From assembly GCA_002753565.1 (NCBI GenBank), contig PEAM01000032.1, positions 1-42,739 on the forward strand: a stretch of 42,739 bases of DNA. Direction: 5' to 3'. The notes beneath the pieces were generated by a model, which searched no databases, had not been told where the DNA came from, and was given only the letters and a program-made list of their open reading frames with translations. Positions 8,852 to 37,949 of this stretch are shown one piece after another. This stretch comes from Magnetococcales bacterium. Lineage in GTDB: Bacteria > Pseudomonadota > Magnetococcia > Magnetococcales > JADFYX01. Numbering within the stretch: the stretch's first letter is position 1; each line of letters opens with the position of its first letter. The position numbers were made by a program, and so were the translations under genes.

Positions 8852-10399
8852 TTATCCAGCTTGACCGCTGCCCTTTTCAGGTGGTTTATCCCTTTCCTGG
8901 TCTAACGTTGGGGGCGATTGACACTCCTTTGAAGGAGGCTCTTTCTTGATCAGGGCGCCGTAGGGGAAATAAAACAGGTTTCGCAGTCCGGCAACATTGG
9001 AAATATTGCGGGCAAATTTTCGTACCTCATACTGGAGCCCCTCTCGAACGGTCTCTTTATCCGCTGTACCGGACTCTTGGATGGTAATCAAGCGGTGCAG
9101 GGCGTGAGAGCCTAAAAAAAAGGAGAGAATAAAGATAAAGTCCAGCCCTGACAGGTTGACCGTAGGAAAATGGAGAAGGGTGGTGCCGGCGTTTTTAAGG
9201 TCGAATGTCAGCGATAACGTGTGGTCTGCTGTCCAGGTTGCCAGGGTTCCTCCGACAATTGGCCCAAGCATGGCGGCAATCCCGGAAACCAGAGAGCGCA
9301 TGGCAAGATATTGGGTGGCTTCCCCTTTGGGGGCCAGCTTCATGGCAATATTGCTGGAAGAAAGATTCACCCCCGCCGAAGAGACCCCACTCAAGGCGTG
9401 GATGGTAACAAGCAGAGGCAGAGTGAGCAGATAATGGTCCGGCATGGAGGTGAACGGCCAGATCAGCATGGTTAAAATCAGGATGGGGCCAGACTCCATC
9501 AATACCGAGCGGTTGCTGAAACGGTCGGCCAGAATACCCCAGATGCGGATAAAAAGGATGTTGGCCATTTGGCTCACCATAGCCAAAGCCATGATCAGGG
9601 TCATGGAGAGGTGGAGGCGGTTGAGCATGTAGACGGCAAAAAAGGGGGTTGCCAAATTAACCGCAAAGTTCCAGCTGGCCAGAAAGATTAAGAGTTGCCG
9701 AAAATTTTTATCTCGAAAGGGTTTGCCAAGGGTGGCAAACCAATCATCCTGATCGGGAGGGGGCATCTGCGGTTCAGGAATTTTAGACAGAGCCCAAACC
9801 CCCGAAAGCCCCAGCAATCCACCCAGGATGAACATGGCTGAGTAGATGTGAAGCAGGGAATAGGCCGGCTTAAGGAGGTCGACCCCATAACCGGCCACCA
9901 TGCCAAACAGGGAGCCGGCCAGGGTGGAGAAGATGATCCGGTTGGCGGCATGCTGCCCGCGCCGCTCTTCAGGGATAAGATCTCGCATCCAAGAGTGGTA
10001 GGATAACGAGGCCATGGTCCCCAGGCTGAAATACATGAACAAAAAGAAGAACAGGTAACCGGAGGTTGTGGTGCCAGGAAAGAGCCAGGGTAGTGCCGCG
10101 GCAAAAAACCAGAACATGCGACTGAAAAAAGCCCCCATCACCGCCAATCGCTTGCGCTGACGGACACGGCGAATGAGAAAAATAGCCGGTATCTGGGCAA
10201 TTTGGGAAAAAGGGGCCAGGGCGGCAATCAGGCCAACCTGAAAGGGGGTTGCTCCCAAAAGCAGGGCAAAAGCAACCAGAAAGGCGCCTCCGGTCACCAC
10301 ACCCATAATCTGGCTGCTGACACCATCGACAAGAAGCATTCGCATGCCTCGATCAAGTTCTGCTGGGGAAATCTGACTTTGTGGTGAAAGGAATCTCAT
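8852..10399 (-). CDS. MFS transporter, paralogue of the gene at 11809
   Basis: About 515 residues with some twelve hydrophobic segments arranged as two halves, the major facilitator pattern. The substrate is not recognisable. It is clearly paralogous to the protein at 11809-13329: both begin with an S-x-x-E-L-D-x-G-x-R-M-L-L motif, share a GGAFLVAFAL helix and the loop FSNRSVLMESGPI, and end with a cytoplasmic tail containing SNVAGLR. The start is ATG 10399 behind GGAG; a GTG at 10414 is also possible, but 10399 aligns with the paralogue's N-terminus. It follows the PsiE-like gene by a short gap and is probably cotranscribed with it. Confidence 0.82.
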   Translation of the reverse strand: MRFLSPQSQISPAELDRGMRMLLVDGVSSQIMGVVTGGAFLVAFALLLGATPFQVGLIAALAPFSQIAQIPAIFLIRRVRQRKRLAVMGAFFSRMFWFFAAALPWLFPGTTTSGYLFFFLFMYFSLGTMASLSYHSWMRDLIPEERRGQHAANRIIFSTLAGSLFGMVAGYGVDLLKPAYSLLHIYSAMFILGGLLGLSGVWALSKIPEPQMPPPDQDDWFATLGKPFRDKNFRQLLIFLASWNFAVNLATPFFAVYMLNRLHLSMTLIMALAMVSQMANILFIRIWGILADRFSNRSVLMESGPILILTMLIWPFTSMPDHYLLTLPLLVTIHALSGVSSAGVNLSSSNIAMKLAPKGEATQYLAMRSLVSGIAAMLGPIVGGTLATWTADHTLSLTFDLKNAGTTLLHFPTVNLSGLDFIFILSFFLGSHALHRLITIQESGTADKETVREGLQYEVRKFARNISNVAGLRNLFYFPYGALIKKEPPSKECQSPPTLDQERDKPPEKGSGQAG

Positions 10400-10426
10400 T
10401 GTCGATGGCTCCACACTCCGGGTGGA

Positions 10427-10906
10427 TTACTCCTTCTCTTTACCACTGGAGGCGGACCGTTTGGTTGGTGGCATGCTGGGAGAGACAACCACCGATGCCG
10501 TGCGTATCAGACCCAGGGCGATGATCAGCACACTGAAGGCGTAAATATCCAGGGAGGCCATTTTATCTTGGAACAGCTTGATCATGACCTCTCTTATGAC
10601 AAAAACAATGGCGGCATCAATGATAAATACCAGTCGCAGGCGTTTCAACTCAAAATATTCCACCAGGGAACGGGAGAGCTCTATCAGGATAAACAGAGAG
10701 AGAACATCGGCAATGAGCGCTTGGTAGCTTCCTGTTACTGTACCGGACATCAACAGGGTTCCCAGACCAAGAAAGAGCTTGCCCGCACCGATGGCAATAC
10801 CCAAGGTGAGAAAAAGCAGGATCACCCCAAAGACGGCATTGGTAATGTTGAAAAAGTAGGGGAGTAGACGTTCACGACAAAAAAAGTTCGACATCTGTTC
10901 AATCAT
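10427..10906 (-). CDS. PsiE-like inner-membrane protein
   Basis: A 159-residue protein with four hydrophobic helices and the pattern of the phosphate-starvation-inducible PsiE family: LIADVLSLFILIELSRSLVEYFE, then IDAAIVFVIREVMIKLF and a last helix FSVLIIALGLIRTASVVV. The biochemical role of the family is unknown. The Lys/Ser-rich tail is short. It starts 27 bp before the MFS gene, which it probably precedes in one transcript. Its divergent neighbour is the DUF599 gene. Confidence 0.75.
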   Translation of the reverse strand: MIEQMSNFFCRERLLPYFFNITNAVFGVILLFLTLGIAIGAGKLFLGLGTLLMSGTVTGSYQALIADVLSLFILIELSRSLVEYFELKRLRLVFIIDAAIVFVIREVMIKLFQDKMASLDIYAFSVLIIALGLIRTASVVVSPSMPPTKRSASSGKEKE

Positions 10907-11808: not shown

Positions 11809-13329
11809 TTGATAGACTTTACCCCCAAAGAGAGCATCAGTTCCAAAGAGTTGGATCACGGGTTGCGCATGTTGCTGTACGATGGCGCCTGCACCCAGGT
11901 GATGGGTGTCCTGGCGGGGGGGGCCTTTCTGGTGGCTTTTGCCCTCCACCTGGGCGCTTCTCCCATGATGATCGGCCTGATCGCTGCTCTGGGGCCGCTT
12001 ACCCAAATTCTCCAAATACCGGCTATTCTACTCATCGACAAACTACGTCGGCGCCGGGCGGTGGTGGTTATCGCCTCCCTGGCCAGCCGGATTTTCTGGC
12101 TTCCCGCTGCCCTGCTGCCGTGGATTGCTCCTGAACCGCTGCAGGCTCCTCTTCTTCTGCTCTGTCTTTTTCTCTATTATGGGTTGGGTACGGTGTCGGG
12201 TCTGGCCTGGACCTCCTGGATGCAGGATTTTATTCCGTCCAAGATCTTAGGGCAATACATGGGGCGGCGCATGGCCATCGCTGTTGGTGTTGGTGCTGTG
12301 GTCAGTCTGGCGGCTGGATTGGGGGTGGATTTTGGCAAAAAATGGTTTGATGAGGTCACCCTCTATGCGTTCTACCTTGGGGTAGGTGGTCTGTTCGGTC
12401 TGGCTGGGGTCTTTTTTCTGGCTCGCACCCCCGAACCCAGCATGAAAGTGACCTCTACAGACAATTTTTTACAACTGCTTAAAGAGCCGTTTCTCGATAA
12501 AAACTTTCGACAACTTCTTATCTTTCTCGGCTCGTGGAGCTTCGCTGCCAACATGGCGGCCCCCTTTTTTACTGTCTACATGCTCCAACGTCTGCACATC
12601 AGTATGGGATGGATTGTGGGTTTTTCTGTTCTCAGTCAACTGTCCAACATGGCCGCTTTGCGCCTGTGGGGGCGATTGGCCGACCGGTTCAGCAACCGTT
12701 CGGTACTCATGGAGTCTGGCCCCATTTTTATTCTTTCCCTTCTTATCTGGCCTTTCACCTCCATGCCGGACACCTATTTTTTGACCCTGCCGCTGTTGGC
12801 CCTGATCCATATTCTTACCGGTATCTCCACCGCCGGTGTGATGCTGGGTAGTGGCAATATCGCCCTGAAGCTGGCCCCCAAGGGGCGCTCCACCAGTTAT
12901 CTGGCGGTCAACGGAATGGTCTCTGGTCTGGCGGCTACGTTAAGCCCTCTGTTGGGCGGCCTGTTGGCTACCTTGCTGGATGGTGAGGCGTTGACCATGG
13001 ATCTGAAATGGAGCTCCGCGGCCGGAGCCACACGGCTGTTTTTACATGCGGTGGATATTCGCGGTCTGGATTTTCTGTTTATCCTGGCGTTTGTTTTTGG
13101 GATCTATGCCCTTCACCGACTTCTCTCCGTCCAGGAGGAGGGGACCGTGGAAAAAGGGGTGGCTCTTCAGGCTTTTCATGTGGAGGTGCGCCGGGCGGTT
13201 CAGAGCATCTCCAACGTGGCGGGTTTGCGTATTCTAACCTCCTTCCCCTTCGGAAAACTGGTTGCTTCTCCCTCAAAACAGCCTACTATCAAGGTGCGTA
13301 TCACCCAGTCAGATAGCCAAGCCGGATGA
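11809..13329 (+). CDS. MFS transporter, paralogue of the gene at 8852
   Basis: A 506-residue carrier with the same two-half, twelve-helix layout as the divergent paralogue. The proposed start is TTG 11809; this keeps the N-terminal block SSKELDHGLRMLLYDGA that aligns with the paralogue, although the ribosome site is weak. A cytoplasmic stretch between the last helix and the C-terminus carries SISNVAGLRILTSFPFGKL, closely matching SNVAGLRNLFYFPYGAL in the other copy. This tail motif is not a general MFS feature and may be a shared regulatory or interaction site. Substrate unknown. The dispersed repeat at 13339 begins ten bases after the stop. Confidence 0.82.
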   Translation: MIDFTPKESISSKELDHGLRMLLYDGACTQVMGVLAGGAFLVAFALHLGASPMMIGLIAALGPLTQILQIPAILLIDKLRRRRAVVVIASLASRIFWLPAALLPWIAPEPLQAPLLLLCLFLYYGLGTVSGLAWTSWMQDFIPSKILGQYMGRRMAIAVGVGAVVSLAAGLGVDFGKKWFDEVTLYAFYLGVGGLFGLAGVFFLARTPEPSMKVTSTDNFLQLLKEPFLDKNFRQLLIFLGSWSFAANMAAPFFTVYMLQRLHISMGWIVGFSVLSQLSNMAALRLWGRLADRFSNRSVLMESGPIFILSLLIWPFTSMPDTYFLTLPLLALIHILTGISTAGVMLGSGNIALKLAPKGRSTSYLAVNGMVSGLAATLSPLLGGLLATLLDGEALTMDLKWSSAAGATRLFLHAVDIRGLDFLFILAFVFGIYALHRLLSVQEEGTVEKGVALQAFHVEVRRAVQSISNVAGLRILTSFPFGKLVASPSKQPTIKVRITQSDSQAG

Positions 13330-13661: not shown

Positions 13662-14627
13662 TTACGGCATAAGTTCCATCTGAACTCGACGGTTCATGGC
13701 CCGACCGTCACGGGTTTCGTTGTTGGCAATAGGCCTGTTCTCGCCAAATCCCCTGGTCATCAGTCGGTCTGAGGAGACCCCCCGTGAGACCAGTTCGTTA
13801 AAGACCGTTCTGGCCCGTTTATCCGAAAGCCTCTGATTGAAGGCATCGCTGCCTCTGGAGTCGGTATGTCCTTGAATTTCTACCTTGAGGAGCGGATTCT
13901 TTCTGAAAACCGTTGCCGCATTGTCAAGAATAACCTCTCCTCCGGGCTTGATGGAGGAGCGACTGGTATCGAAGTTGAGGTTTTGAAGAACCCAACAGCC
14001 CTGGATATTGACCGTTGCGCCAATGGGTGTGCCTGGACATCTGTCACGGGCATCAATAACGCCGTCTTTATCGGTGTCCGGTGGGCAGCCATCAGGATTA
14101 ACCTTCAGGTTGGGTGGTGTCCCTGGGCAGCGATCTTTGTCGTCTGTTACGCCATCCCCATCTTCATCTGGGATACAACCGTTACGGTCAACCTTGGCTC
14201 CTCTTGGGGTTCTGGGACATTGGTCATCGGCATCAAAGACACCATCGCCATCGGAATCGATAGGACATCCATCATCATCAACCTTGACACCTCTTGGGGT
14301 ATCTGGGCACTGGTCCTCACCATCGTGAACACCGTCACCATCGGAATCGATAGGACATCCGTCGGATGATACCTTCACACCTGACGGGGTATCGGGGCAT
14401 TGATCATCCGGGTCCATGACGCCATCGCCATCGCTGTCGACAACTTTTTTGCCAAACGGGCAGAAATAACATTGGGTCCCTGTGCTGGCAAGGGTGTTGT
14501 TTCCAGACTGCGGGTGCCACTGTGCATAGCCTTTGCGTTCACCAAAATTTTCTCTCGGGGCGGTGAAAACGCATCCAGCAAGCGTCATCACCAACAGGGT
14601 TATTCCTAATAGCTTCAATAATTTCAT
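13662..14627 (-). CDS. OmpA-like lipoprotein with five thrombospondin type 3 repeats
   Basis: Outer-membrane-linked peptidoglycan-binding protein. A lipoprotein signal peptide ends in the lipobox LAGC (Cys19). Five tandem repeats of about 26 residues follow (residues about 63-205), each with the Asp-rich calcium-binding pattern DSDGDGV-x-D-x-x-D-x-C-P-x-TP-x-G. The C-terminal 110 residues are an OmpA domain, with NFDTSRSSIKPG, EIQGHTDSRGSDAFNQRLSDKRA and GFGENRPIANN. The usual OmpA beta-barrel is absent; the repeats replace it as a rigid spacer. The gene is 104 bp downstream of the dikinase unit in the same orientation and could be read with it. A strong terminator follows. Confidence 0.92.
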   Translation of the reverse strand: MKLLKLLGITLLVMTLAGCVFTAPRENFGERKGYAQWHPQSGNNTLASTGTQCYFCPFGKKVVDSDGDGVMDPDDQCPDTPSGVKVSSDGCPIDSDGDGVHDGEDQCPDTPRGVKVDDDGCPIDSDGDGVFDADDQCPRTPRGAKVDRNGCIPDEDGDGVTDDKDRCPGTPPNLKVNPDGCPPDTDKDGVIDARDRCPGTPIGATVNIQGCWVLQNLNFDTSRSSIKPGGEVILDNAATVFRKNPLLKVEIQGHTDSRGSDAFNQRLSDKRARTVFNELVSRGVSSDRLMTRGFGENRPIANNETRDGRAMNRRVQMELMP

Positions 14628-14731: not shown

Positions 14732-16060
14732 TTATTCGCCGCCAGAAGCTTTAATCTCCTCCTTTTTTCCCTGCTCGTTAACGGTGACCGCCATTCGGGT
14801 TTGAACCAATCGGTCGATGGCAGCGCCAAGGCGTGAGTGGTCCCAAGCTGAGTTTTTCTTCATGACATTTGAAATCAGAGCGACAAAATAGCGTTTCTGT
14901 TCCGGCCCGGTAGGGGCTGGTGATTCGATGATCGCCAGGGAGTTCATTAAATTGTCTCGATTACCCTGGTATTTTCCGCATGTAAAGCCCGCTTCGGCTT
15001 GGCAGCGGTAGAACGACCCACTTTTAAAAAAAGCTGAAGAAGCGGCCAACTCCGGCGCAAAGATGTAGCGGTATCGACGGCTGGTGGTATAGAGAAATTT
15101 TTTCATCTCCAGGCTTGACCATAAATCCACCAAGCGGCCCTGCTCCAGACGCAGAAGAAAACGCGCCATCTCTCGGGGTGTCGCCACCGATCCCCCTTCA
15201 CCGGGAATAAGTGTTTTGGCGGTTTTGGTCCAGAAACTACCTACTTTAAAGTGTTTCCACCTAAGGCCGACCGCCTCCATGGGTTCAACCACGGCGCTGC
15301 GGGCCAGATGCCAAAGGGCCGGTTTGGGGGTGGTGCGAAAAAAGTGTGCCTCTTCCTCTTTGGATGGCGGATAGCGATCCCCAAAGTGGCGCAACAAAAC
15401 GGTCTCTTTCCAGACTGTTGCAGCGGCCCCGTTGGCAGATGCAGAGATCATGTGGTCGACCCATTCGGCCAAGGTAAAGTGATCGCCGGGTTGGATGGTG
15501 GCAGAACGTACGGTGTTGGTTTGGGGGTCATAAAGAGGCACCTTATGTTCATCCCATTTCACCCACTCTCCTGCGGTCACTCTTCGGCTGCGTAAAAGAG
15601 TGCGACGCGCCTCGATATCTGGGAAGGCGCGAGCCAGTTCGTGAAACAGGCCCAGCATGGTCAAAACCTTGCCAACGCTACCCGGCATCTGAGGGCGATC
15701 GGCACGAACCCCCGCCCAGACCAGCCGAGAGGGATCGCTCATATCTGCCACAACCACACCATAAGAGGGGTCCCGGCTCAAAAATACCCCCTCAAGGGCC
15801 TTTTGCAGGGCAGGGTCCCGGTGGCTTTCATCCAGATCGAGGGTTGGATCGGTTTGGGTCAGGTTGAGACGAATGGTCTGACTCTCCTGTCTTGCGCCTT
15901 CGGGTAGTCGCGGTGCCCCTCGGGCACCCTGCTTGGGATCAAATCCCTGCAGGCGGCTGATGCCCATCTCCTGCCAGCCATCCAGGGGATAGGCAAACAG
16001 ATTGGCTGCGCTGGCTGTCAGCACAAAGCTGACCAGCAGGGTATACAGCATGGGCTTCAT
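14732..16060 (-). CDS. Exported beta-lactamase-fold serine hydrolase (dikinase unit, gene 4)
   Basis: A 442-residue protein with an N-terminal signal peptide (FVLTASAANLFA) and the three active-site motifs of penicillin-recognising enzymes: S128-V-G-K131, an S-A-N triad in MISASANGAAA, and K-S-G in AFFKSGSFYRC. Two cysteines in the segment after K-S-G could form a disulfide, as expected for a periplasmic protein. The segment between the motifs is longer than in class A beta-lactamases, so a carboxypeptidase, esterase or non-catalytic binding role is as likely as antibiotic hydrolysis. The start codon overlaps the stop of the dikinase gene as ATGA. A related but shorter protein is encoded at 19001. 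The native substrate is unknown. Confidence 0.78.
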   Translation of the reverse strand: MKPMLYTLLVSFVLTASAANLFAYPLDGWQEMGISRLQGFDPKQGARGAPRLPEGARQESQTIRLNLTQTDPTLDLDESHRDPALQKALEGVFLSRDPSYGVVVADMSDPSRLVWAGVRADRPQMPGSVGKVLTMLGLFHELARAFPDIEARRTLLRSRRVTAGEWVKWDEHKVPLYDPQTNTVRSATIQPGDHFTLAEWVDHMISASANGAAATVWKETVLLRHFGDRYPPSKEEEAHFFRTTPKPALWHLARSAVVEPMEAVGLRWKHFKVGSFWTKTAKTLIPGEGGSVATPREMARFLLRLEQGRLVDLWSSLEMKKFLYTTSRRYRYIFAPELAASSAFFKSGSFYRCQAEAGFTCGKYQGNRDNLMNSLAIIESPAPTGPEQKRYFVALISNVMKKNSAWDHSRLGAAIDRLVQTRMAVTVNEQGKKEEIKASGGE

Positions 16061-18999
16061 GGGGTGTCTCCCCTTTTTTCTGCCCCAATATAAAGGGGTT
16101 GGTCAAGGTTTATGGTGCCCTCAGAGGTGGGAAGGGGCAGCTGCTCGGCTACCCGCTGGTCTGCCACCTGTGCCCCTCTCTGTACCAACGGTCGAATCTG
16201 CATCAGCCACACTTTTCCTTCGGCAAAAGCGAACTCCACATCCCAAGGCAAAAGAGCGCCCGACGCATCTTTGGCCGGAGGATAACGCTGCGCCACCTCC
16301 TGGGCCAGTTCACGCAGCTGCATCAACTCTTTGTCATTGAGCACCGGACCGGTTAGAGCCGGTCGCCAGCCAACACCGCCTTGGGGCAGGAGAACCCGTT
16401 TGTAGGGGGCTTTGGCTTCGGCTAGTACTATATGGGTATTGTCGGGGCGCAATACAAGGGTCTGGGCACTTTCATTATCGACGGCACCTCCCACCCCCCA
16501 GGCGACAGAGACCGTGATACCCGGACCACCACCGGTCAGGTCGGTGGTGACTAAAACCCCGGATTTTTCCGCCGACACACTCTGCATCAGCAACACAGAG
16601 GCATAGACATCCTCGGGATTGGAGAGAATCTGGCTGCGCCACGACATGCTGCGCCACGTATAGACCGAAGCCCATACTCGGCTGATCCCTTCAACCTGCT
16701 GCTGAAACCCCACCACATGGGGTACGGTCTCGTTAAGGCCGGCACCGGTAAAACCCGGCAGATCCTCCACGTTGGTATCGGAGCGGACAAACAGGCCAAC
16801 CCCCTCCAACTCACCAAACTCCTCTATCATGGTCTTGGCCAACAGGGTGCGGGTTGGTTGATCCAGAGTGAGTTTTAACACCGCTTGCCGTGCCAACTCC
16901 AGCTCGTGTTTAAAGGCCGCTTCATCCAGCAGGCCGGCTCTTAGTTTCTTGAAGGCCTGGCGTGCCCGTTTGAGGGGGGCATCCTCTCCGGCCCCCACAT
17001 GGCGGGCAAAAATACCAAACGGCAGAGCCACCGCAGGGGCAACCCGGCCAGGGAAAAGACGTGCCAGCTCCCCCACATTGGCGGCTTTGGGACCGACAAC
17101 CCGTCCAGAAAGAGCAGCATGCAGAGCTTTGAGGGGCAGGGGGGTCTCCAAAGAGAGATCCGGTGCGGGAGCGATAATACGCTCTTGATTTTGAAAATCA
17201 GGTCCCGCCTTTACCGTGGAACGCTCTTCGACCAGATGCAGAATGGCGCGTCCATCGGTGGCTGCAATAAGTTCAACAAGGCGACCATCGTAGGGGGTCA
17301 AGCTCCGACCTACCTCAGGCGTGATCCCCACATTGGGGATGCCCAGATTGCGTGCCAGCATCTGTACGTGAGATAACGGATTGCCTTCACCCAGGGTGAT
17401 AATACCCGCCACCGGTGACAGATCCGATACAGTCTCTGGCAGCAGAACAATATCGTTGCGCCCCATCTCCACGCCATCACGAATTTTTGCCGCATCCAGA
17501 ATACGCAGCCGCCCCTGGGCCAGGCCGGGGTTCAGCGCCCACATGCCCGATTTTTGTTCCCCAAAGAGCAGAGAGGCACTACCCACCGCTTGGCGGGCAT
17601 CAGCCATCAGAACCTCCACCGTGTCAGCCAGGGGCATGAGGATCGAGCCACGCAACAGGTCATCGACAAAGCGGGCTGCTACAGGTTCCAAGGCGCCGTA
17701 CCAGGTTAAAGGCTCAGAAAAAGCGTGGCGCACGCTCCCCTCTGCCCACTGCATGGGCAGTCGCAAACGCTGGATATGGCGCCCATACACCTGGGCTGCC
17801 TTCTCCTTATTGTCAGACAGCAGGTGGGTTAAGGGTTCCTGCAGAGCCTGCCACTCTCCGGGTGAGATCCAGCCGGTAAACCGAGCCGCTTCCAGCAGAG
17901 TTTTAACCCGAATCACTGCTCCACGGCGAGAAGCCGGTTGAGGAAGAGCCCTGGCTCTGGCAAGGAGTTCTGCTTCGAGTTCTGCCATGATTTCCAGGCG
18001 CTGCAGGCGGCCCGGCCCATCCTGGGCACGTAGCAGCGTCCCATGCAGGGCTCTCATGGCCTCCACCAGGAGGGCTACTCTGATCTCAGGATCTGGCTCC
18101 CCTTTGGCTCGGTTTAAGGGGGTTCGCACCCCACCATCGGACTCCGGCAGGGATCGGGCCAGAGCCGCAATCCGCCCCTCTCGCCCCTCAATCCCATAGA
18201 GTTGCTCCAGTTCTGCGGTCAGTTCAAGCCCCATCTGGCGATCGGCCGGAGGTAAAGAGGGGTTGGCAGCCAGCCAGTCATGGACGCGGGATGCGCTCAG
18301 GGTGTCGGGACGACCATGAATTTCCACCCGCATGGGTTCAAAATCCCGCCATTTTTCAGCCAAGGTTTGGGAGAGGCGACGAATCAGTCGGGTGGGATCG
18401 TTGCCGCCACCGTGATGGGGAATGGTCCGAACCAGCTCTCGTGCCAGAATAAAATGGTCCACCATCCAGGTACGGTCTGCCAGCAGCGCCAGCAGCAGCT
18501 TTCGCCCGGACTCCTGCTCGTCTTCTATCTGAACATGGCCTCGGTAGCTTTTGGCCTTACGCATGACCCAGCCGTCGTCCACTTCCAGCAGATAGCGCTC
18601 CAGAGGTAAGGCCCTCAGGCGTATCTGCCGGGGTGTCTCTGTGAGAAGCTCTGACGGTTTCAAGGCCGCAAAGAGTGTCCCCACAGGCCAACCCAACTCT
18701 GCCAGCCGTCGCTGTTGGGCAGAGTGCTGACCGTGTTGACGCCCGCCACCATGCTTGGCGCAGGCAAAGGGTTTTGGGGGGAGAACAGCCCCATCTTTGC
18801 AAAACCAACGGATGGCATCGAAAGGGCCCCGAGGGTTGGCTTTCATGGCGGCAACCAGAAGGCGAGCCTCTTTGAGAATAGCCTCTTTGGGCGGACGCAT
18901 GAACTCGGGAGGAGCGCTGACAGCCACCGAGGAGAGACATAACAGGGTCAGACCAGCGGCTAGTTGGATGAAAGGCAGGATAGAACGGCTCTGGTCCAT
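16057..18999 (-). CDS. Exported GWD-like dikinase (PEP/pyruvate-binding fold)
   Basis: About 980 residues. A Sec-type signal peptide (helix FIQLAAGLTLLCLSSVAV, cleavage after VSA) is followed by some 480 residues not recognised. A swivelling phosphohistidine domain centres on His544 in NPLSHVQMLARNLGIPNVGI. Last comes an ATP-binding PPDK_N-type domain (Lys638 in GPKAANVGEL; Arg739 in VRSDTNVEDLPGFTGAGL; end at WLMQIRPLV, about 936). His domain before ATP domain is the order of glucan water dikinases, the reverse of PEP synthase and PPDK, and the motifs LSHV..ARN and NVEDL.G..AGL also look GWD-like. Such enzymes transfer the beta-phosphate of ATP to a glucan. Start: ATG 18999 behind GGGGGAAAA, one base after the stop of gene 2. 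Export of an ATP-dependent dikinase is odd. The glycan acceptor is inferred. Confidence 0.75.
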   Translation of the reverse strand: MDQSRSILPFIQLAAGLTLLCLSSVAVSAPPEFMRPPKEAILKEARLLVAAMKANPRGPFDAIRWFCKDGAVLPPKPFACAKHGGGRQHGQHSAQQRRLAELGWPVGTLFAALKPSELLTETPRQIRLRALPLERYLLEVDDGWVMRKAKSYRGHVQIEDEQESGRKLLLALLADRTWMVDHFILARELVRTIPHHGGGNDPTRLIRRLSQTLAEKWRDFEPMRVEIHGRPDTLSASRVHDWLAANPSLPPADRQMGLELTAELEQLYGIEGREGRIAALARSLPESDGGVRTPLNRAKGEPDPEIRVALLVEAMRALHGTLLRAQDGPGRLQRLEIMAELEAELLARARALPQPASRRGAVIRVKTLLEAARFTGWISPGEWQALQEPLTHLLSDNKEKAAQVYGRHIQRLRLPMQWAEGSVRHAFSEPLTWYGALEPVAARFVDDLLRGSILMPLADTVEVLMADARQAVGSASLLFGEQKSGMWALNPGLAQGRLRILDAAKIRDGVEMGRNDIVLLPETVSDLSPVAGIITLGEGNPLSHVQMLARNLGIPNVGITPEVGRSLTPYDGRLVELIAATDGRAILHLVEERSTVKAGPDFQNQERIIAPAPDLSLETPLPLKALHAALSGRVVGPKAANVGELARLFPGRVAPAVALPFGIFARHVGAGEDAPLKRARQAFKKLRAGLLDEAAFKHELELARQAVLKLTLDQPTRTLLAKTMIEEFGELEGVGLFVRSDTNVEDLPGFTGAGLNETVPHVVGFQQQVEGISRVWASVYTWRSMSWRSQILSNPEDVYASVLLMQSVSAEKSGVLVTTDLTGGGPGITVSVAWGVGGAVDNESAQTLVLRPDNTHIVLAEAKAPYKRVLLPQGGVGWRPALTGPVLNDKELMQLRELAQEVAQRYPPAKDASGALLPWDVEFAFAEGKVWLMQIRPLVQRGAQVADQRVAEQLPLPTSEGTINLDQPLYIGAEKRGDTP

Positions 19000-19000
19000 C

Positions 19001-19948
19001 TTATTTTCCCCCTGTTCGGGTGGTGTTGGAGGTTGCTCTGTTGGGCGCAAGCGGTAAAACCGTCTCTATGGCGGGCACCAGTGCCTGCAGAATATTTTCG
19101 CCGTTGGTATCTTCAACCATGCCCACCAGAATATAGCGGCGCCATTGGGGGCCCCAAACCAAGGCAGCATCGGCGTGCCATATTTTCCAGGTACCGGATT
19201 TTCGATAAATTTTAGCCTCAGGGGCGGCACGGCGTAAGGCTTTGACAAATTTGTGGTTGATTTTTGGGTCGACCAGCAGATCCAGCATCTCTTGAGAGCG
19301 TTGCGGGTTGACCAGACGTCCGGTAGCCAGAAGATAAAAGAAACGGCAGACCTGGGTGACGGTGGCGCCATGGGATAACCCATGGATGGGGTCTGGCCGC
19401 CTTCGACCAGCCTGTTGATACCGTTTTCCCACCCACAGCCCGCCGCCCAGGGTTTCGTCATACAGGTGATAGCGAGGATCTGTCAGTACCTGATTAACCC
19501 GGTCCAACCCACCCAAACGGTCGATCATTCGGGTGGCGGCCGCGTTGCTGGAGACTCGGATCATGGCAGCCAGGTCGGCATTGATGGCCTTTGTTCTCTC
19601 GAGAGTGCCCTCCTCAAACTGTTGGAATGCCGCCAGCAAAATAGCGATTTTGGGTAGGCTGGCGGCATACATCATGGAGCGACCGTTGATTCGGGCAAAG
19701 CGTGGCTGCAGCGGATGGGAGAGGTCAACAAGACCCACAGCCATCTTGCCTCGGTCCATCAGACGGGCCCAGGCTCTGTTTTCCCTTAAGCGGCGGATGA
19801 GTTTTTCCTGCATGGCCTCATCAACCTGCTCATAGAGGGGTGACCAGGGCAGGTTGGAGGCGGTGACAGGCAAGGGGGGGGGCGCGGCCCAAACGGCTGT
19901 CATACCACTCATGACCAAAACCAATGCCAGACCAAAAATGCGCATCAT
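19001..19948 (-). CDS. Exported beta-lactamase-fold serine hydrolase (dikinase unit, gene 2)
   Basis: A 315-residue protein of class A beta-lactamase fold. A signal peptide (MMRIFGLALVLVMSGMTAVWA) precedes the catalytic motifs S97-L-P-K100, S133-S-N135 and K-S-G in IYRKSGTW. The Glu166 region of true class A beta-lactamases is not obvious, so antibiotic hydrolysis should not be assumed. The start is ATG 19948, sharing one base with the stop of the transporter gene (TGATG), which gives the signal peptide; the upstream extension of the frame to 20401 lies inside the transporter gene. Its own stop is one base before the dikinase start. The pairing with the hydrolase at 14732 suggests related steps on peptidoglycan or a lipid-linked glycan. 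Confidence 0.8.
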   Translation of the reverse strand: MMRIFGLALVLVMSGMTAVWAAPPPLPVTASNLPWSPLYEQVDEAMQEKLIRRLRENRAWARLMDRGKMAVGLVDLSHPLQPRFARINGRSMMYAASLPKIAILLAAFQQFEEGTLERTKAINADLAAMIRVSSNAAATRMIDRLGGLDRVNQVLTDPRYHLYDETLGGGLWVGKRYQQAGRRRPDPIHGLSHGATVTQVCRFFYLLATGRLVNPQRSQEMLDLLVDPKINHKFVKALRRAAPEAKIYRKSGTWKIWHADAALVWGPQWRRYILVGMVEDTNGENILQALVPAIETVLPLAPNRATSNTTRTGGK

Positions 19949-21351
19949 CACTCTTTTCCCAAGGTTGGAAACCGTCTGCGTCGCTCCCGGAGGATGGCAA
20001 CCGCAACCCCCATCCAAGCCAGAATAAGAGCCATGTTTAAATAGAAAAAGCTCTCGGTATTCCACGCCATGAGACGCACCCCCGCCAGCACGGTAAGAGC
20101 CGCCAAAACATCGCCCAAGCGGACACATACCGTATCGATAGCGGTTTTGGCTTTGTAGAGAATCTCTTGAGGAACAGGTAACCACAACACATGACGGGCG
20201 GTATTGGTTACCGAGTAGTTGACCGCATTTTCCGCCGTTTTTCCCCAGGTTAGAGCGGTAATCCCCCCCAGGGAGGAGATGGCGGCGTAACCGGCCAGGG
20301 AAATAAGCGGCGGTGTCAGCATCAAGGCCGTTAATCCACCGTGGCGCAGCAGACGGGAGACCACAAAAGCCTGCAACAACACCCCGATCAGATTGACCCA
20401 AAAGTACAGCCGACCATAAAAGGTGGTGGTGGCATCACGTAGAATCCGGCTGGCACTCTCCCCTTCCAGCCCCTCCAGTGAGGCTTTCAGAGTCTCTTGA
20501 ACCACCGCAAATAGAATGTTTTCGCCATTGGTAACCACCCAGTTGAGCAGCAGCATGAACAGGGCAATAAGAAACAGGTAACGGTCGGTAAATATCAGCC
20601 TCAGCCCGCCGCGAGAGCCCTTTTTTGCCGGCTCCAAGCTCTTTTTTTCCGCCCTGGCTGACCCATGGCCTGTTCGGTCGATGTGATGAATAATCCAGAG
20701 GGCGACTAAAAGAGGCAGAGGGGCAACCAGCAACAGATGGTAGGCGTCAAGGTTGAGGGCTTTAACCAGGCGATCGGTAATCCAACTACCGGCAACCGCA
20801 CCAATGGAGGCACCCAGCGCAATAAACGGAAAGAGCCGTCGTCCGGCGGCTTCATTGTATAGATCTGCCGCATAGGCCCAAAACTGGGCAATGACCATGA
20901 CGGCAAAAATACCCACCCAGACATAAAACGCCAACCCGGCAAAGGGCATGTTGTCCAACAAAAAACCGGGACGAAGCAGCCAGAAAAGCGGGAAAAGTGT
21001 CGAAAAAAACAGGCCGACCAAGGTTAACAGGCGTACCCTGGACCAGCGGTTGGCATAATAGGCATAGAGGGGCATGATGCCTATTAAAACCACCGTCTGC
21101 AAAAAACTGGAATAGCCCTTTACCTCCAGTTTGGACAGAGAAGAGAACAGGGAGACAGCCAACCAACCCTCCCGTACCGGCTTGACCAGGTAGTAGGCGA
21201 CCAGAATCAGGAATACACAGGCAAACAGCCACAACGCCCCCGTGGACTCATGGGGCATGATGCGGGTAAACGGCGATAAAATCCGCGAGATTCGAAGGCC
21301 GGATTGGGAAGGGGGAGAGGCCCCCTGCTGAGGTTCGGAGAGTTGGGTCAT
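19948..21351 (-). CDS. Nucleotide-transporter-like carrier (NTT/AAA family related)
   Basis: A 467-residue membrane protein with about twelve hydrophobic helices. The motifs YYLVKPVREGW after the first helix and VIAQFWAYAADLYNEAAGRRLFPFIALGASIGAVAG in helices 4-5 resemble ATP/ADP translocases of obligate intracellular bacteria and their free-living relatives rather than sugar carriers. The substrate is not proven. It is the first gene of the four-gene unit, with a good sigma-70 promoter about 90 bp upstream and a TGATG junction to the next gene. Because a downstream product is an exported ATP-using dikinase, supply of a nucleotide to the periplasm is an attractive inference. It could instead move lipids, glycans or peptidoglycan fragments. 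Confidence 0.7.
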   Translation of the reverse strand: MTQLSEPQQGASPPSQSGLRISRILSPFTRIMPHESTGALWLFACVFLILVAYYLVKPVREGWLAVSLFSSLSKLEVKGYSSFLQTVVLIGIMPLYAYYANRWSRVRLLTLVGLFFSTLFPLFWLLRPGFLLDNMPFAGLAFYVWVGIFAVMVIAQFWAYAADLYNEAAGRRLFPFIALGASIGAVAGSWITDRLVKALNLDAYHLLLVAPLPLLVALWIIHHIDRTGHGSARAEKKSLEPAKKGSRGGLRLIFTDRYLFLIALFMLLLNWVVTNGENILFAVVQETLKASLEGLEGESASRILRDATTTFYGRLYFWVNLIGVLLQAFVVSRLLRHGGLTALMLTPPLISLAGYAAISSLGGITALTWGKTAENAVNYSVTNTARHVLWLPVPQEILYKAKTAIDTVCVRLGDVLAALTVLAGVRLMAWNTESFFYLNMALILAWMGVAVAILRERRRRFPTLGKE

Positions 21352-21709: not shown

Positions 21710-21750
21710 ACCCCCACAACTTGATGGATCAACAATTAAGGAAAATAATC

Positions 21751-23568
21751 ATGTGGAACGAACTGGTGGATGGATTGAGATCAAAAATGGTACGCCTGGG
21801 CCTGCTCGGTCTGCTCATCATGATACCGGCTACCCTGTCGGCTGGTGCGACAGAAACTGGCCAGGCCATTACGTGGTCACTCTTGATCATGAACCTGCTG
21901 GGGGGACTCGCCCTGTTTCTGTTTGGACTGGAAATGCTCGCCGACTCTCTGAAGCTGGTAGCCGGAGACCGAATGCGCATGATCCTCTCCTCACTGACCA
22001 CCAACCGCTTCTCTGGCGCTCTTACCGGGGCAGGTGTGACGGCGGTGGTGCAGTCCTCTTCGGTGACGACGGTGCTTGTGGTGGGTTTTGTCAGCGCGGG
22101 ACTGATGACCGCAGAGCAGTCTCTGGGTATCATTATGGGGGCCAACATCGGCAGTACCATGACCTCCCAGTTGATTGCATTCAATGTGACCAAACATGCC
22201 ATGTGGCTGGTGACATTGGGGTTTGCCATCACTTTTTTGGCCAAAGAGGATTGGCTGAAACAGATTGGCAAGGTGGTTATGGGGTTGGGGCTGATTTTCT
22301 TTGGTATGGGGTTCATGTCCGCAGCCATGCAGCCCCTGCGCAACTATGCACCGTTTCTTGAACTGATGACCAAGATGTCCAACCCCCTGTTGGGGATTCT
22401 TGTCGGAACCCTCTTTACGGCGTTAATCCAGTCCTCGGCAGCCACCATGGGCATTGTCATTGTCATGGCTGGTCAGGGGATGGTGACTCTGGAGGGGGGG
22501 ATAGCGTTGGCGTTCGGAGCTAATATCGGCACCTGTGCTACCGCTCTATTGGCCTCCATCGGTAAACCCAGTGCCGCCGTACGAGTCGCTCTGTTTCATA
22601 TTCTGTTCAATGTGCTGGGTGTTGTCATCTGGCTGCCCTTTATCGGCTATCTGACCGATTTTGTCGCCTGGCTCTCCCCCGCCAGTACCGAGCTGGAGGG
22701 GATGGCGCGTCTGGCGGTGGAAGCGCCCCGGCAAATTGCCAACGCCAATACTGTTTTCAACGTCGTCAATACGGCACTTTTTATCTGGTTTACCGGCCCT
22801 CTTTCCCGGCTGCTGACACGATTGGCTCCGGATAAGGTGGTTGCGGCCGATACAACGTCAACCTTTAAACCGGTCTACCTGGATAACCTGCTCTTATCCA
22901 ACCCGGCGATTGCCCTACAGGTTGCCCGGCTTGAGGTGCTCAGCCTGGGAGAGCGGGTTCAGGCTATGGTTGCCAAGGTTCCTGAGGTGATTTTGAGCGA
23001 CAGCGCCCAACAGCTGAGTCAGGTGGAGGAAAAAGATCAGGAGATTGATGGGCTGCATCAGGAGATTATGGAATTTCTTGGTGAACTCTCCCGACACGCC
23101 CTCACCAAAGAGCAGACCAGCGACCATCTCAAGCTGGCAGAGACGGTAGACTATCTGGAGCAGTTGGCGGATGTGGTCGAATCGGACCTGGTGCGGCTTG
23201 GCCGAGAGCGGGCCAGTTCGGAGGTCGCTCTCAGTCCGGTTTTTAGTGAACTTTTCATCCCATTGCACCGTCTTGTGGAGGAAAGTCTCGAAGCTGTCTT
23301 GCTGGCCCTCTCTACGGGTGATGTCAGGCTGGCCAGGCAGGCTCGGGACCGAAAAGAGGAGATGGGGGCTATTCTCTCCTCTGAGGCGTTTCAAAAACTC
23401 CGTTCTCACGATCCCGAGGCCCCCTCTCGACTGGAAATCTATGCTATCGAGAAGGATGCCCTCGAAAAAACCAAAAGGCTCTTCTATTTTGTTCGCCGTA
23501 TGGCGCGGAGCCAGACCGGACGCAAAAAGCAGAAAAACCGGTTGGAGCCTCTGCCAACCTCCGTATGA
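21751..23568 (+). CDS. Na+/phosphate cotransporter with PhoU-like tail
   Basis: A 605-residue member of the NptA/YjbB-type Na/Pi cotransporter family. Two inverted membrane repeats carry the QSSS motif (TAVVQSSSVTTVLVVGF) and the QSSA motif (TALIQSSAATMGIVIVM), which form the substrate site. After about residue 380 the protein becomes soluble and helical, like PhoU, with two antiparallel helix bundles. Start: ATG 21751 behind AAGGAAAA; in-frame ATG 21724 and TTG 21721 lie upstream without a comparable ribosome site. Some relatives export phosphate. The structured RNA just upstream may be its leader. A PsiE-like gene is in the window but not linked to it. Confidence 0.9.
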   Translation: MWNELVDGLRSKMVRLGLLGLLIMIPATLSAGATETGQAITWSLLIMNLLGGLALFLFGLEMLADSLKLVAGDRMRMILSSLTTNRFSGALTGAGVTAVVQSSSVTTVLVVGFVSAGLMTAEQSLGIIMGANIGSTMTSQLIAFNVTKHAMWLVTLGFAITFLAKEDWLKQIGKVVMGLGLIFFGMGFMSAAMQPLRNYAPFLELMTKMSNPLLGILVGTLFTALIQSSAATMGIVIVMAGQGMVTLEGGIALAFGANIGTCATALLASIGKPSAAVRVALFHILFNVLGVVIWLPFIGYLTDFVAWLSPASTELEGMARLAVEAPRQIANANTVFNVVNTALFIWFTGPLSRLLTRLAPDKVVAADTTSTFKPVYLDNLLLSNPAIALQVARLEVLSLGERVQAMVAKVPEVILSDSAQQLSQVEEKDQEIDGLHQEIMEFLGELSRHALTKEQTSDHLKLAETVDYLEQLADVVESDLVRLGRERASSEVALSPVFSELFIPLHRLVEESLEAVLLALSTGDVRLARQARDRKEEMGAILSSEAFQKLRSHDPEAPSRLEIYAIEKDALEKTKRLFYFVRRMARSQTGRKKQKNRLEPLPTSV

Positions 23569-24375: not shown

Positions 24376-24650
24376 GGGCAGCTGCTAGTAGCAAACGTAT
24401 GCCGGGGTCTGGGGCTGTATACCGCGTCCGGTCTCCTGGATATAAATTTTGTTTATAAAAAGGGGTGATAATCACTGCGGGTGGGTGTCACCTTCAACAC
24501 GCTATTTTTTGGACGATAGGGATGATTTTCCAGGGCGCCAGAGAGGGTTTTGGCGGTGTGTGAGTTGATAAAATAATGATTATGCGGTGAAGTATCTCTC
24601 TCCTTGTGCTATGTTTACCCTTTTTATGTGTAAAAAACAGGGAGGTAACA

Positions 24651-26423
24651 GTGTGTGGAATATGCGGTGAAATCAGGTTTGACGGAAGTGCTGCTTCTGT
24701 CTCAGATGTTCAAAAAATAGCTGAAAAATTATCCCCCAGGGGGCCAGACGGCGCCGGAGTCCTGGCTAGAGATCGAGTCTGTTTTGCTCATCGCCGACTG
24801 AAAATTATTGATCTGAGTGACAACTCAGCTCAGCCCATGACCGACCCGGAACTGGGGTTGACCCTCGTTTTTAACGGCTGTATCTACAACTATGCCGAAC
24901 TTCGACAAGAACTAACCCAAAAAGGCTATCGTTTTTTCTCTCAAGGTGATTCAGAGGTCATACTGAAGGCCTATCACGCTTGGGGTACGGCCTGTGTGCA
25001 GCGGTTTCAGGGTATGTTTGCCTTTGCCCTGTGGGAGCGGGAGAGTGGTCGGGTTGTGCTGGCTCGTGATCGTCTGGGGATTAAGCCCCTCTATCTAAGC
25101 CAGGGTAATCACTCTCTGCGTTTCTCCTCCAGCCTCACCTCTCTGTTAACCCTGAACGATATCGATAAGAGCATCAATCCGATCGCTCTACACCACTACA
25201 TGAGTTTTCATGCGGTGGTTCCACCACCTCACACCCTGATCAACGGTATCCAAAAACTCCCTCCGGCGACTGTTTCGGTGATCGAGGCCGATGGCCGCCG
25301 CCGTGATGAATCCTATTGGGAGCTCACCTTCAACCCTCATCCAGGAGATGAGAAAAAAAGTGAGGGTCAGTGGCAAGAGGAGATTTTGGCCGCCTTGCGT
25401 CTGGCGGTCAAGCGGCGTTTGGTGGCCGATGTACCGGTTGGGGTTCTGCTCTCTGGTGGGTTGGACTCCAGCCTGATTGTTGCTTTGTTGGCCGAAGCAG
25501 GGCAGACGGGTCTCAACACCTTTTCTGTCGGCTTTGAGTCCATTGGTAGCGAGGAGGGGGATGAGTTCCGCTACTCCGACCTGGTTGCCGACCACTTCTC
25601 CACCCGGCACCACAAGATCACCATTCCCACCACCGAGCTGCTCGATGTGCTGCCTGATGTGATTGGCAGTATGTCAGAGCCTATGGTCAGCCACGATAAT
25701 GTAGGCTTCTATCTGCTCTCTCGAGAGGTAACCAAGCAGGTCAAGGTGGTTCAGAGCGGGCAGGGGGCTGATGAGGTTTTTGCCGGTTATCACTGGTATC
25801 CGCCGATGAGCCACTCCACCAATCCAGCTGATGACTATGCGCGGGTTTTTATGGACCGCAACCCGGAGGAGATGGCTAAAACCCTGCAGCCACAATGGCT
25901 GAGTCAAGATTATAGTCGGGCATTCATCGATGAACATTTTTCCCGCCCTGGAGCGGATGCTGCCGTGGATAAGGCTCTGCGTATGGATACCACGGTGATG
26001 TTGGTGGATGATCCGGTCAAACGGGTGGACAATATGACCATGGCTTGGGGGCTGGAGGCCCGTGTGCCCTTTTTGGATCATGAACTTGTCGAGCTGGCGG
26101 CTCGCACACCGGCTCCCCTGAAAATGGCTCAAGAGGGTAAAGGGATTTTAAAAGATGTCGCACGTGGTGTGGTTCCCGATGCGGTGATCGATCGGCCCAA
26201 AGGCTATTTTCCGGTCCCGGCCCTTAAATATATTAAAGGCACGGTGCTCAACCGGGTGCGAGAGGCGTTGGTCTGTCAGACAGCCCGAGAACGCAACCTG
26301 TTTAATCCCACCATGGTTGAGACCCTCCTCGCTGACCCCACGGCCCACATTACCCCGTTGCGTGGCTCTAAACTTTGGCAGATTGCCCTATTGGAGCTTT
26401 GGTTGCAAAAGCATAACCTGTAA
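24651..26423 (+). CDS. asnO: N-acetylglutaminylglutamine amidotransferase (NAGGN osmolyte)
   Basis: Asparagine-synthase-type amidotransferase that converts the dipeptide N-acetylglutaminylglutamine to its amide, a compatible solute. The start is GTG 24651 behind GGGAGG at ideal spacing; this places Cys2 (CGICGE) at the mature N-terminus as the glutaminase nucleophile, which decides the start against the upstream-open frame from 24606. The class II glutaminase domain spans about 1-200, and the synthase domain carries the PP-loop SGGLDSS near residue 265. It is the first gene of asnO-ngg-peptidase. An 11-bp direct repeat (24581-24591 and 24661-24671) flanks the start. The 275 bp upstream hold no gene and no clear promoter. 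Confidence 0.93.
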   Translation: MCGICGEIRFDGSAASVSDVQKIAEKLSPRGPDGAGVLARDRVCFAHRRLKIIDLSDNSAQPMTDPELGLTLVFNGCIYNYAELRQELTQKGYRFFSQGDSEVILKAYHAWGTACVQRFQGMFAFALWERESGRVVLARDRLGIKPLYLSQGNHSLRFSSSLTSLLTLNDIDKSINPIALHHYMSFHAVVPPPHTLINGIQKLPPATVSVIEADGRRRDESYWELTFNPHPGDEKKSEGQWQEEILAALRLAVKRRLVADVPVGVLLSGGLDSSLIVALLAEAGQTGLNTFSVGFESIGSEEGDEFRYSDLVADHFSTRHHKITIPTTELLDVLPDVIGSMSEPMVSHDNVGFYLLSREVTKQVKVVQSGQGADEVFAGYHWYPPMSHSTNPADDYARVFMDRNPEEMAKTLQPQWLSQDYSRAFIDEHFSRPGADAAVDKALRMDTTVMLVDDPVKRVDNMTMAWGLEARVPFLDHELVELAARTPAPLKMAQEGKGILKDVARGVVPDAVIDRPKGYFPVPALKYIKGTVLNRVREALVCQTARERNLFNPTMVETLLADPTAHITPLRGSKLWQIALLELWLQKHNL

Positions 26424-26438
26424 AAATAGGATTGACTC

Positions 26439-28205
26439 ATGTCCAATGAAGAACTACCCAGTACCATGGACCCACAAAAAATGGCTTCTCTTAAACATTG
26501 GGGAGATCCACCCGACGAACCCGGTATGGATCAGATGCAGAAAAATGTGGTGGTGGATTGTGGTTGGGGCCGCCTGATTTTTGGCCAAACCTTCGAAGAC
26601 TCCTCTGCTCTGGTAGAGGTGCTACGTGAAGAAAAAGAGGGGAGGCGTGATCTGGCCCTCTATGTTCGAGATCCCCATGTTTTAATCTCCCATGCACCTC
26701 AAGAGCTGTTTTTAGACCCCTCCCATACCTATCGTCTTGCCTTTGATGGTCAGCCTCTGGGGCTATCCAAGGCGGATGGTTTTAGTGTCTCCTTGATGAA
26801 AAGCGTTCGAGAGGGGGAAGAGGCCAACCGTATTTTAGCCCAGCACGGCATGATTCGGGTAGGACGGGACTCGTATCAGCAGATACTTGATTCAGAGGCT
26901 GTCTCGGTTTTTATTGCCAAAGATAACCGCAACGGAGCCATTCTTGGCATTGCCACCGGTGTGGATCATCATAAGGCCATCAACGACCCGGATAATGGTT
27001 CCAGCCTCTGGTCCATTGCTGTGGACCCTCAATGCCCCTACTCGGGGGTGGGAGAGCGAATTGTCGTGGAGATGGCCCGCCTCTATCGTGATCACGGCCG
27101 TAGTTTTTTAGATCTTTCTGTTTTCCATAATAACAATCAAGCGATCTCCCTCTACGAAAAACTGGGGTTTGAAAAAGTCCCGGTTTACTGCCTGAAACAT
27201 AAAAACTGCATCAACGAGAAGCTTTTTTCCGGCCCTCAGCCGGGGGTAGAGCTGAATATCTACTCTCGGATTATTATTGATGAGGCTCGTCGGCGTGGGA
27301 TTATGGTGGATGTTCTGGACCGGGGCGAATCCTATTTCAAGCTGACTTTTGGCGGACGTTCCATCACCTGCCGGGAGTCTTTGAGCGAGTTGACCTCTGC
27401 CATAGCCATGAGTCGATGTCAGGATAAATCGGTCACCCTGCGGCTATTGAAGGAGGCGGCCCTCAGTGTGCCTGAGCAGATTAGCGCTGCCGACCGGGAG
27501 GAGGTGGAGGCCTTTATTCAGCATCACCAGCGTGTTGTGGTGAAACCGGCCAATGGCGAGCAGGGGCAGAATGTCCGTGTCGACCTGCGCGGTGTACCGG
27601 AGGTGCTGGAGGCCATTGAGACCATCGGTACCCCAGCCAAAGAGATTATTGTGGAGGAGTTGGTCAGAGGGGAGGATCTGCGCATTATTGTCATTGATGA
27701 AGAGGTGGTAGCTGCCGCTGTTCGTAAACCGCCGCTTGTGACGGGTAATGGTCAGCAGACTGTCTCCCAGTTGATTGAAAAACAGAGTCGTCGAAGATCT
27801 GCAGCCACCCACGGGGAGAGTCAAATTCCCATGGATGATGAGACCATCCGTTGTGTCCGGCAGTTGGGTTATCAGATGGATTCGGTGTTGCCGGTTGGGG
27901 TGACTTTAACCGTGCGAAAAACGGCCAATCTCCATACCGGTGGGGTGATACAGGATGTCACCCCCATTCTTAACCCGATCCTCTCCCAAGCTGCGGTTAC
28001 CGCGGCCCAAACGTTGGATATTCCGGTTGTCGGTCTGGACTTTATGGTGCCCGATGTGCGGGGTAGTGAGTATTATATCATCGAGGCCAACGAAAGGCCG
28101 GGGCTGGCCAACCATGAACCCCAGCCGACGGCAGAACGATTTATCGACCTGCTCTTTCCTCAAACCAGACCGATGAGTTCATCCTGCGTGGAGCCAATTT
28201 TATGA
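26439..28205 (+). CDS. ngg: N-acetylglutaminylglutamine synthetase (GNAT plus ATP-grasp)
   Basis: A 588-residue fusion that makes the N-acetylated glutamine dipeptide of the NAGGN pathway. The acetyltransferase half (about residues 110-265) has the GNAT core (SSLWSIAVDPQCPYSGVGERIVVEMARLY and NNNQAISLYEKLGFEKV). The C-terminal half (about 325-580) is an ATP-grasp ligase of the cyanophycin-synthetase/RimK type (VVVKPANGEQGQNVRVDLRG, metal-site end IIEANERPGL). The start ATG 26439 follows AGGA. It begins 16 bp after asnO and its stop overlaps the next gene as ATGA. Fusion and gene order match the conserved three-gene NAGGN cluster. Confidence 0.93.
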   Translation: MSNEELPSTMDPQKMASLKHWGDPPDEPGMDQMQKNVVVDCGWGRLIFGQTFEDSSALVEVLREEKEGRRDLALYVRDPHVLISHAPQELFLDPSHTYRLAFDGQPLGLSKADGFSVSLMKSVREGEEANRILAQHGMIRVGRDSYQQILDSEAVSVFIAKDNRNGAILGIATGVDHHKAINDPDNGSSLWSIAVDPQCPYSGVGERIVVEMARLYRDHGRSFLDLSVFHNNNQAISLYEKLGFEKVPVYCLKHKNCINEKLFSGPQPGVELNIYSRIIIDEARRRGIMVDVLDRGESYFKLTFGGRSITCRESLSELTSAIAMSRCQDKSVTLRLLKEAALSVPEQISAADREEVEAFIQHHQRVVVKPANGEQGQNVRVDLRGVPEVLEAIETIGTPAKEIIVEELVRGEDLRIIVIDEEVVAAAVRKPPLVTGNGQQTVSQLIEKQSRRRSAATHGESQIPMDDETIRCVRQLGYQMDSVLPVGVTLTVRKTANLHTGGVIQDVTPILNPILSQAAVTAAQTLDIPVVGLDFMVPDVRGSEYYIIEANERPGLANHEPQPTAERFIDLLFPQTRPMSSSCVEPIL

Positions 28206-34956: not shown

Positions 34957-34971
34957 AGCTTAATTCCTTAT

Positions 34972-35715: not shown

Positions 35716-35790
35716 AGCTGGCCTCAGTGTCTTATATCAATTTTGTCGGTAACATCAGTAGAAAGGGGAAATTGACGGCTTGGCCCATGC

Positions 35791-37938: not shown

Positions 37939-37949
37939 CGTCCTCATCC

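Follow-up and report, generated by a model that had tools for sequence, protein, structure and literature searches.

Plant glucan water dikinases (GWD) consist of a large N-terminal acceptor part, followed by a phosphohistidine domain and then an ATP-grasp domain. The periplasm is generally regarded as a compartment without ATP. In GWD and phosphoglucan water dikinase (PWD) the beta-phosphate of ATP is transferred to a histidine and from there to the acceptor, and the gamma-phosphate is passed on to water (PMC7569903, PMC12892837). Homologues of the NTT carriers exist in free-living bacteria, where their function is an open question (PMC5381601). In the published twisted-stalk sfz neighbourhood the gene beside that of the SH3-CotH protein Sfz6 was named ATP-ADP antiporter, and in the portion of that report considered here the authors do not propose that it supplies ATP to the CotH protein (PMC8250860).

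We analyzed a stretch of 42,739 nucleotides from a Magnetococcales bacterium, hereafter the window, which contains the gene for a dikinase (DIK) in a compact gene cluster (Table 1). The gene order is NTT, HYD_A, DIK, HYD_B and then an OmpA/TSP3 lipoprotein, and the frames from NTT to HYD_B are coupled: NTT and HYD_A overlap by 4 bp, the end of HYD_A abuts the start of DIK, and HYD_B and the DIK stop again overlap by 4 bp. A single CDS fills the DIK coordinates exactly, running on the minus strand from an ATG at 18999 to a stop that ends at 16057, with a purine-rich AGGGGGA immediately 5’ of the ATG. The first-pass annotation had described the dikinase and overlooked the operon, in which an NTT homologue and two exported serine hydrolases travel with DIK. 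We put the chances at about even that this cluster encodes a phosphorylation module of the envelope, complete with a dedicated ATP carrier.

Table 1. Features of the DIK cluster and of the second NTT pairing; positions refer to the window unless another locus is named.
Feature	Position	Strand	Remarks
NTT/TLC-family (ATP/ADP carrier-like) membrane protein, P0003	19948..21351	(-)	first cluster gene; divergent
HYD_A, exported serine hydrolase, beta-lactamase/PBP fold	19001..19951	(-)	SLPK, SSN, KSG motifs
DIK, predicted exported dikinase CDS, 980 aa	16057..18999	(-)	ATG start; Pfam PPDK_N + PEP-utilizers
Predicted Sec-type signal peptide of DIK, ~residues 1-28/29	18913..18999	(-)	Arg5, hydrophobic core, AxA-like site
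N-terminal mostly helical domain of DIK, residues 34-476	17572..18900	(-)	candidate acceptor-binding part
Phosphohistidine swivel domain of DIK, ~residues 486-589	17233..17544	(-)	His544 in GEGNPLSHVQMLARN
ATP-grasp (PPDK_N) domain of DIK, ~residues 618-947	16159..17148	(-)	Lys638, Arg739, Glu922, Gln934, Arg936
HYD_B, exported serine hydrolase, beta-lactamase/PBP fold	14732..16060	(-)	SVGK, SAN, KSG motifs
OmpA/TSP3 lipoprotein adjoining module	13662..14627	(-)	54% identical orthologue beside module in G009
Second NTT + CotH pair	L077 3636-9594; also L084-L089, L101-L103		ten Zetaproteobacteria-like genomes

A phosphohistidine domain (His544) ahead of an ATP domain (Lys638, Arg739) had been proposed in the first-pass annotation, and Pfam recovered this arrangement: PEP-utilizers matches residues 520–558 (E 9e-4, under the family cut-off) and PPDK_N matches residues 634–947 (E 5e-27). 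The His domain was matched by PEP-utilizers in 20/21 homologues, with a best E of 5e-6. With the candidate acceptor part in front, the domain order is thus acceptor part, His, ATP. An AlphaFold model computed from the 21 homologues (mean pLDDT 78.6) divides into these three parts, the N-terminal one being mostly helical. In this predicted model the ATP domain superposes on 5hv1 with a Z of 32.8 (305 residues, rmsd 2.7), and structures of rifampicin phosphotransferase (Rph) and PEP synthase (PEPS) align with it at Z of ~29–33 over ~300 residues; the His domain superposes on those of Rph, pyruvate kinase and Enzyme I structures. The catalytic His, Lys and Arg, the E..Q.R end of the ATP domain and the fold place DIK in the PPDK-type dikinase superfamily. 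Because of this family membership (PMC4844700, PMC7569903) and of the intact active site, DIK is likely to follow dikinase chemistry, in which phosphate from ATP would pass through a phosphohistidine to an acceptor with release of AMP and Pi.

DIK shares with Rph and PEP synthase/PPDK the ATP-grasp fold, the His swivel domain and the conserved Lys, Arg, Glu, Gln and Arg, but differs from them by its reversed domain order, by the absence of a rifampicin-binding or PEP/pyruvate domain and by its predicted export. Examined with the same profiles, reference PEP synthase and Rph proteins showed the ATP domain before the His domain, which agrees with the earlier statement that the order in DIK is unlike that of PEP synthase. 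A tree had also been suggested at that stage. In our ATP-domain tree, which has long branches and covers sampled PEPS and Rph proteins and not PPDK, GWD or PWD, the DIK family together with a Streptomyces His-ATP protein is split from both groups with a support of 100/99; the first-pass annotation had named a place inside PEP synthase or Rph as evidence against it, and DIK takes no such place among the sampled sequences. An assignment to PEP synthase or PPDK was rejected, as DIK has no PEP/pyruvate domain, no ATP-His-PEP order and no PEP-binding barrel at the C-terminus and scores far under the cut-off of the PEPS models. Rph was rejected as well: the match to NCBIfam RIF_Ptrans_rph reaches 63 of 999 bits, under the cut-off and in the ATP domain only, the ATP-RIF-His order is not seen, and DIK lies outside the sampled Rph group.

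In comparison to plant GWD1 and PWD, DIK has the same succession of N-terminal part, His domain and ATP-grasp domain, and dikinase chemistry is expected for all of them. It is unlike them in its bacterial export signal, in an N-terminal domain without a recognised relative and in its operon with a carrier and hydrolases. One alternative to the module is that DIK is an exported bacterial member of the GWD/PWD lineage which phosphorylates an exopolysaccharide or a storage-like alpha-glucan, its operon partners being incidental. The domain order, the motifs LSHV..ARN and NVEDL.G..AGL, which are both present in DIK, and the tree split from PEPS and Rph speak for this alternative, as do weak matches to GWD1_pHisD (PF22973), the best of which scores 18.1 bits in G009. 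However, all of these matches stay under the 27-bit cut-off with none in the window protein, and neither CBM45 nor another carbohydrate-binding module was found by Pfam in DIK or the 21 homologues. Nor are the partners incidental, since HYD_B co-occurs perfectly with DIK. We regard the alternative as unlikely. Of the GWD resemblance claimed by the first-pass annotation, the order is borne out and both motifs are present as candidate signatures, but the order is not exclusive to GWD, since a Streptomyces PEP/pyruvate-binding protein (L108 2061-4067) also carries His before ATP, together with a NAEDLPGF..AG motif. This protein is a possible relative of DIK outside the module; genes for an ATP-grasp protein and an MFS transporter lie beside its own. 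A PDB sequence-profile search with DIK returned PEPS/Rph-type ATP domains only and no GWD. Kinship with plant GWD is plausible and DIK may work like a GWD, while its features suggest an additional dikinase family with its own candidate acceptor domain.

This candidate acceptor domain contains the motif WFC.DG...C..GGG.Q with the invariant Cys67 and Cys80, and many aromatic, acidic and basic residues are invariant in the homologue alignment. When modelled alone it reached a pLDDT of 85.8. Foldseek with this lone model found nothing at E ≤ 0.001, and VIA-align gave short helical matches only, with Z ≤ 9.4 over 64 residues. Without a confident structural match the domain therefore provides no clue to the substrate.

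Homologues of DIK were found in two further families of the same order as the window, in one genus elsewhere in the phylum (~20 genomes) and in three genomes of the phylum of a Gemmatimonadetes MAG. We term the genus Zetaproteobacteria-like because its cluster of a second NTT and CotH matches the published sfz neighbourhood. The aligned homologues range down to ~33% identity. His544, Lys638, Arg739, Glu922, Gln934 and Arg936 are invariant in 21/21 of them, from at least three lineages. This bears out the earlier view that the catalytic His, Lys and Arg are retained, and decay of DIK is unlikely. The most divergent homologue, from G239 (L052 9057-11972), lies apart from any partner genes and no longer carries His544, Lys638, Arg739, Glu922 and Arg936, while the signal peptide and the cysteine pair are kept. 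Judged from these residues this orphan is a putative exported pseudoenzyme; as a single case it fits catalysis being retained where the partners are retained. Plasmid records contained only PEPS/Rph-type ATP domains and no full-length relative of DIK.

An N-terminal signal peptide had been noted before, and the charged, hydrophobic and AxA-like stretch expected of it is present in the window protein as well as in nearly all homologues, as judged by hydropathy and AxA-like sites. The cleavage position is approximate: a cut between AVS and A fits best, there is no lipobox, and an alternative site is imperfect as Pro follows VSA. Beyond the N-terminal stretch, hydropathy revealed no second membrane-grade segment in the window protein or in nearly all homologues. 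Cys67 and Cys80 are invariant in the 21 aligned homologues and mostly the sole cysteines of the mature chain; a mature DIK with two cysteines that form an invariant pair fits export. The imperfect site in the window protein could be taken to mean that the stretch is an uncleaved anchor and that the enzyme faces the cytoplasm. With AxA sites in most homologues, the cysteine pair and signal peptides on both HYD_A and HYD_B against it, we consider this scarcely credible, and DIK is likely to be exported out of the cytoplasm.

Both hydrolases are matched above threshold by Pfam Beta-lactamase2 and retain SxxK, SxN and KSG motifs, and their signal peptides are present in nearly all genomes. Two neighbours with a beta-lactamase fold, together with Rph ATP domains as best structural matches of DIK, might indicate an ATP-consuming detoxifier of the envelope, in which DIK would inactivate one antibiotic in the manner of Rph and the hydrolases would inactivate others. 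However, in the NCBIfam class A beta-lactamase model HYD_A scores 22.9 of 200 and HYD_B has no match, and a conserved Glu166-like ExxN motif is absent from the alignments of both. DIK also lies outside the sampled Rph group, and the cluster is kept in one fixed form across many species and by nearly all members of one genus, which resembles a housekeeping function more than a resistance trait. Detoxification is highly improbable. The hydrolases point loosely to the cell wall.

Loci with the proposed phosphorylation module were found in genomes of three kinds, namely Magnetococcales-like, Zetaproteobacteria-like and those of the Gemmatimonadetes phylum. DIK adjoins HYD_B in 23/24 loci, and HYD_A lies beside the two in 20/21 loci where the contig permits a view. 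NTT is found inside the cluster in eight loci from three lineages (the window, G009, G054, G080, G143, G262 and two of the Gemmatimonadetes phylum); several genomes carry their NTT orthologue elsewhere. The OmpA/TSP3 lipoprotein is a probable accessory of the module, as judged from its position. Searches of open-licence papers returned no description of the module. Next to DIK in L017 lies a gene for a PfkB-type kinase, which was considered for AMP salvage and rejected, as it is not conserved beside other DIK copies. In the window, a Na+/Pi cotransporter gene with a PhoU domain (21721-23568) is divergent from the NTT gene, and a phosphate-starvation gene, PsiE, is located at 10427-10906; neither was found near the module at other loci.

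We also determined the distribution of the genes among 100 relatives. The same 10 genomes carry both DIK and HYD_B, and the other 90 carry neither (Fisher, 6e-14 by genome and 2.5e-6 by genus). Homologues of NTT are present in 9/10 relatives with DIK and in 10/90 without; by genus this association is weaker, with P = 0.02. Shared ancestry inflates such counts, and they are not independent of it. Considering all genomes with DIK, 24/26 contain an NTT homologue. In G005, DIK and HYD_B are present and NTT was not detected, so that either the system can work without NTT or a different carrier or source takes its place there.

The NTT protein of the cluster reaches 26.7 bits with Pfam TLC (cut-off 21) in its C-terminal part only and 34.8 of 387 bits with NCBIfam TIGR00769, far under the cut-off. 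Searched as a profile, it matches two ADP,ATP carriers of solved structure at E of 5e-24 and 3e-16, with most of their length aligned. By these matches we class it as a divergent member of the NTT/TLC family. As a putative carrier it is like those of plastids (NTT1), Chlamydia and Rickettsia in this alignment and in a conserved KxxID motif, but it is very divergent, comes from an apparently free-living host and is tied to a predicted exported enzyme.

A second NTT adjoins an SH3-CotH or CotH protein in 10/10 Zetaproteobacteria-like loci examined; in the one neighbour scanned, CotH was found with E 1e-48 in addition to SH3 domains. By these domain matches the arrangement is a second pairing of an NTT with a predicted exported kinase-fold protein. 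The sfz cluster resembles the DIK module in that an NTT-family gene lies beside a gene for an exported kinase-fold protein and in that the same genus-level group carries the DIK module, but its exported protein is CotH and not a dikinase. Neighbours of NTTs in other Pseudomonadota had no common theme by eye. A further NTT homologue in G009 (L083 7209-10335) faces a 5’-nucleotidase gene with an apparent signal peptide.

The cluster’s NTT might instead import or exchange another nucleotide or metabolite, while DIK uses ATP from lysis or outer-membrane traffic, or another phosphate donor. Its divergent sequence, the lack of a tested function for NTTs of free-living bacteria (PMC5381601) and the DIK of G005 without a detected NTT are compatible with this, but the conservation of the cluster in three lineages and the pairing of the second NTT with CotH are not readily explained by it. 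We consider such a role doubtful, and ATP supply by NTT has a roughly equal chance of being right or wrong. The ATP-free compartment had been left as a puzzle by the first-pass annotation, which the carrier homologue of the operon may answer.

In the phosphorylation module as we propose it, an inner-membrane carrier, the NTT-like protein, would swap cytoplasmic ATP for spent nucleotide, and exported DIK would bind the supplied ATP in its ATP-grasp domain. The beta-phosphate would be transferred to His544, AMP being released and the gamma-phosphate passing to water as Pi. The phosphohistidine domain would then swing to the N-terminal helical domain, and DIK would phosphorylate an envelope acceptor, which we infer to be of glycan type, a glycan or a polymer related to peptidoglycan being the likeliest candidate. 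HYD_A and HYD_B would share a wall substrate with DIK or act on one linked to it. The sequence basis covers the domain order, the intact catalytic residues, the export signals, the conserved operon and the co-occurrence.

Judging from the cluster, some free-living bacteria may provide their envelope with ATP for phosphorylating something there. As a conserved operon links an ATP/ADP-carrier homologue to an exported enzyme that uses ATP, a single set of genes allows tests both of ATP in the periplasm and of what such carrier homologues do in free-living bacteria. It is possible, at somewhat less than even chances, that an NTT-family carrier of free-living bacteria supplies periplasmic ATP for a new exported dikinase family and that the parallel NTT-CotH pair does likewise for a protein or polymer kinase.

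Further genes were noticed in the window. The PsiE and DUF599 genes are flanked by two MFS transporter genes (8852-10414 and 11809-13329), which are related to each other and lie on opposite strands. Genes for an asparagine synthase, a GNAT/RimK ATP-grasp fusion and an M42 peptidase follow in a row at 24606-29344. Type I restriction-modification genes (HsdR, HsdS and HsdM) occupy 31867-41658, and a gene for a CAP12/Pycsar-type TIR protein (34972-35715) is embedded among them.
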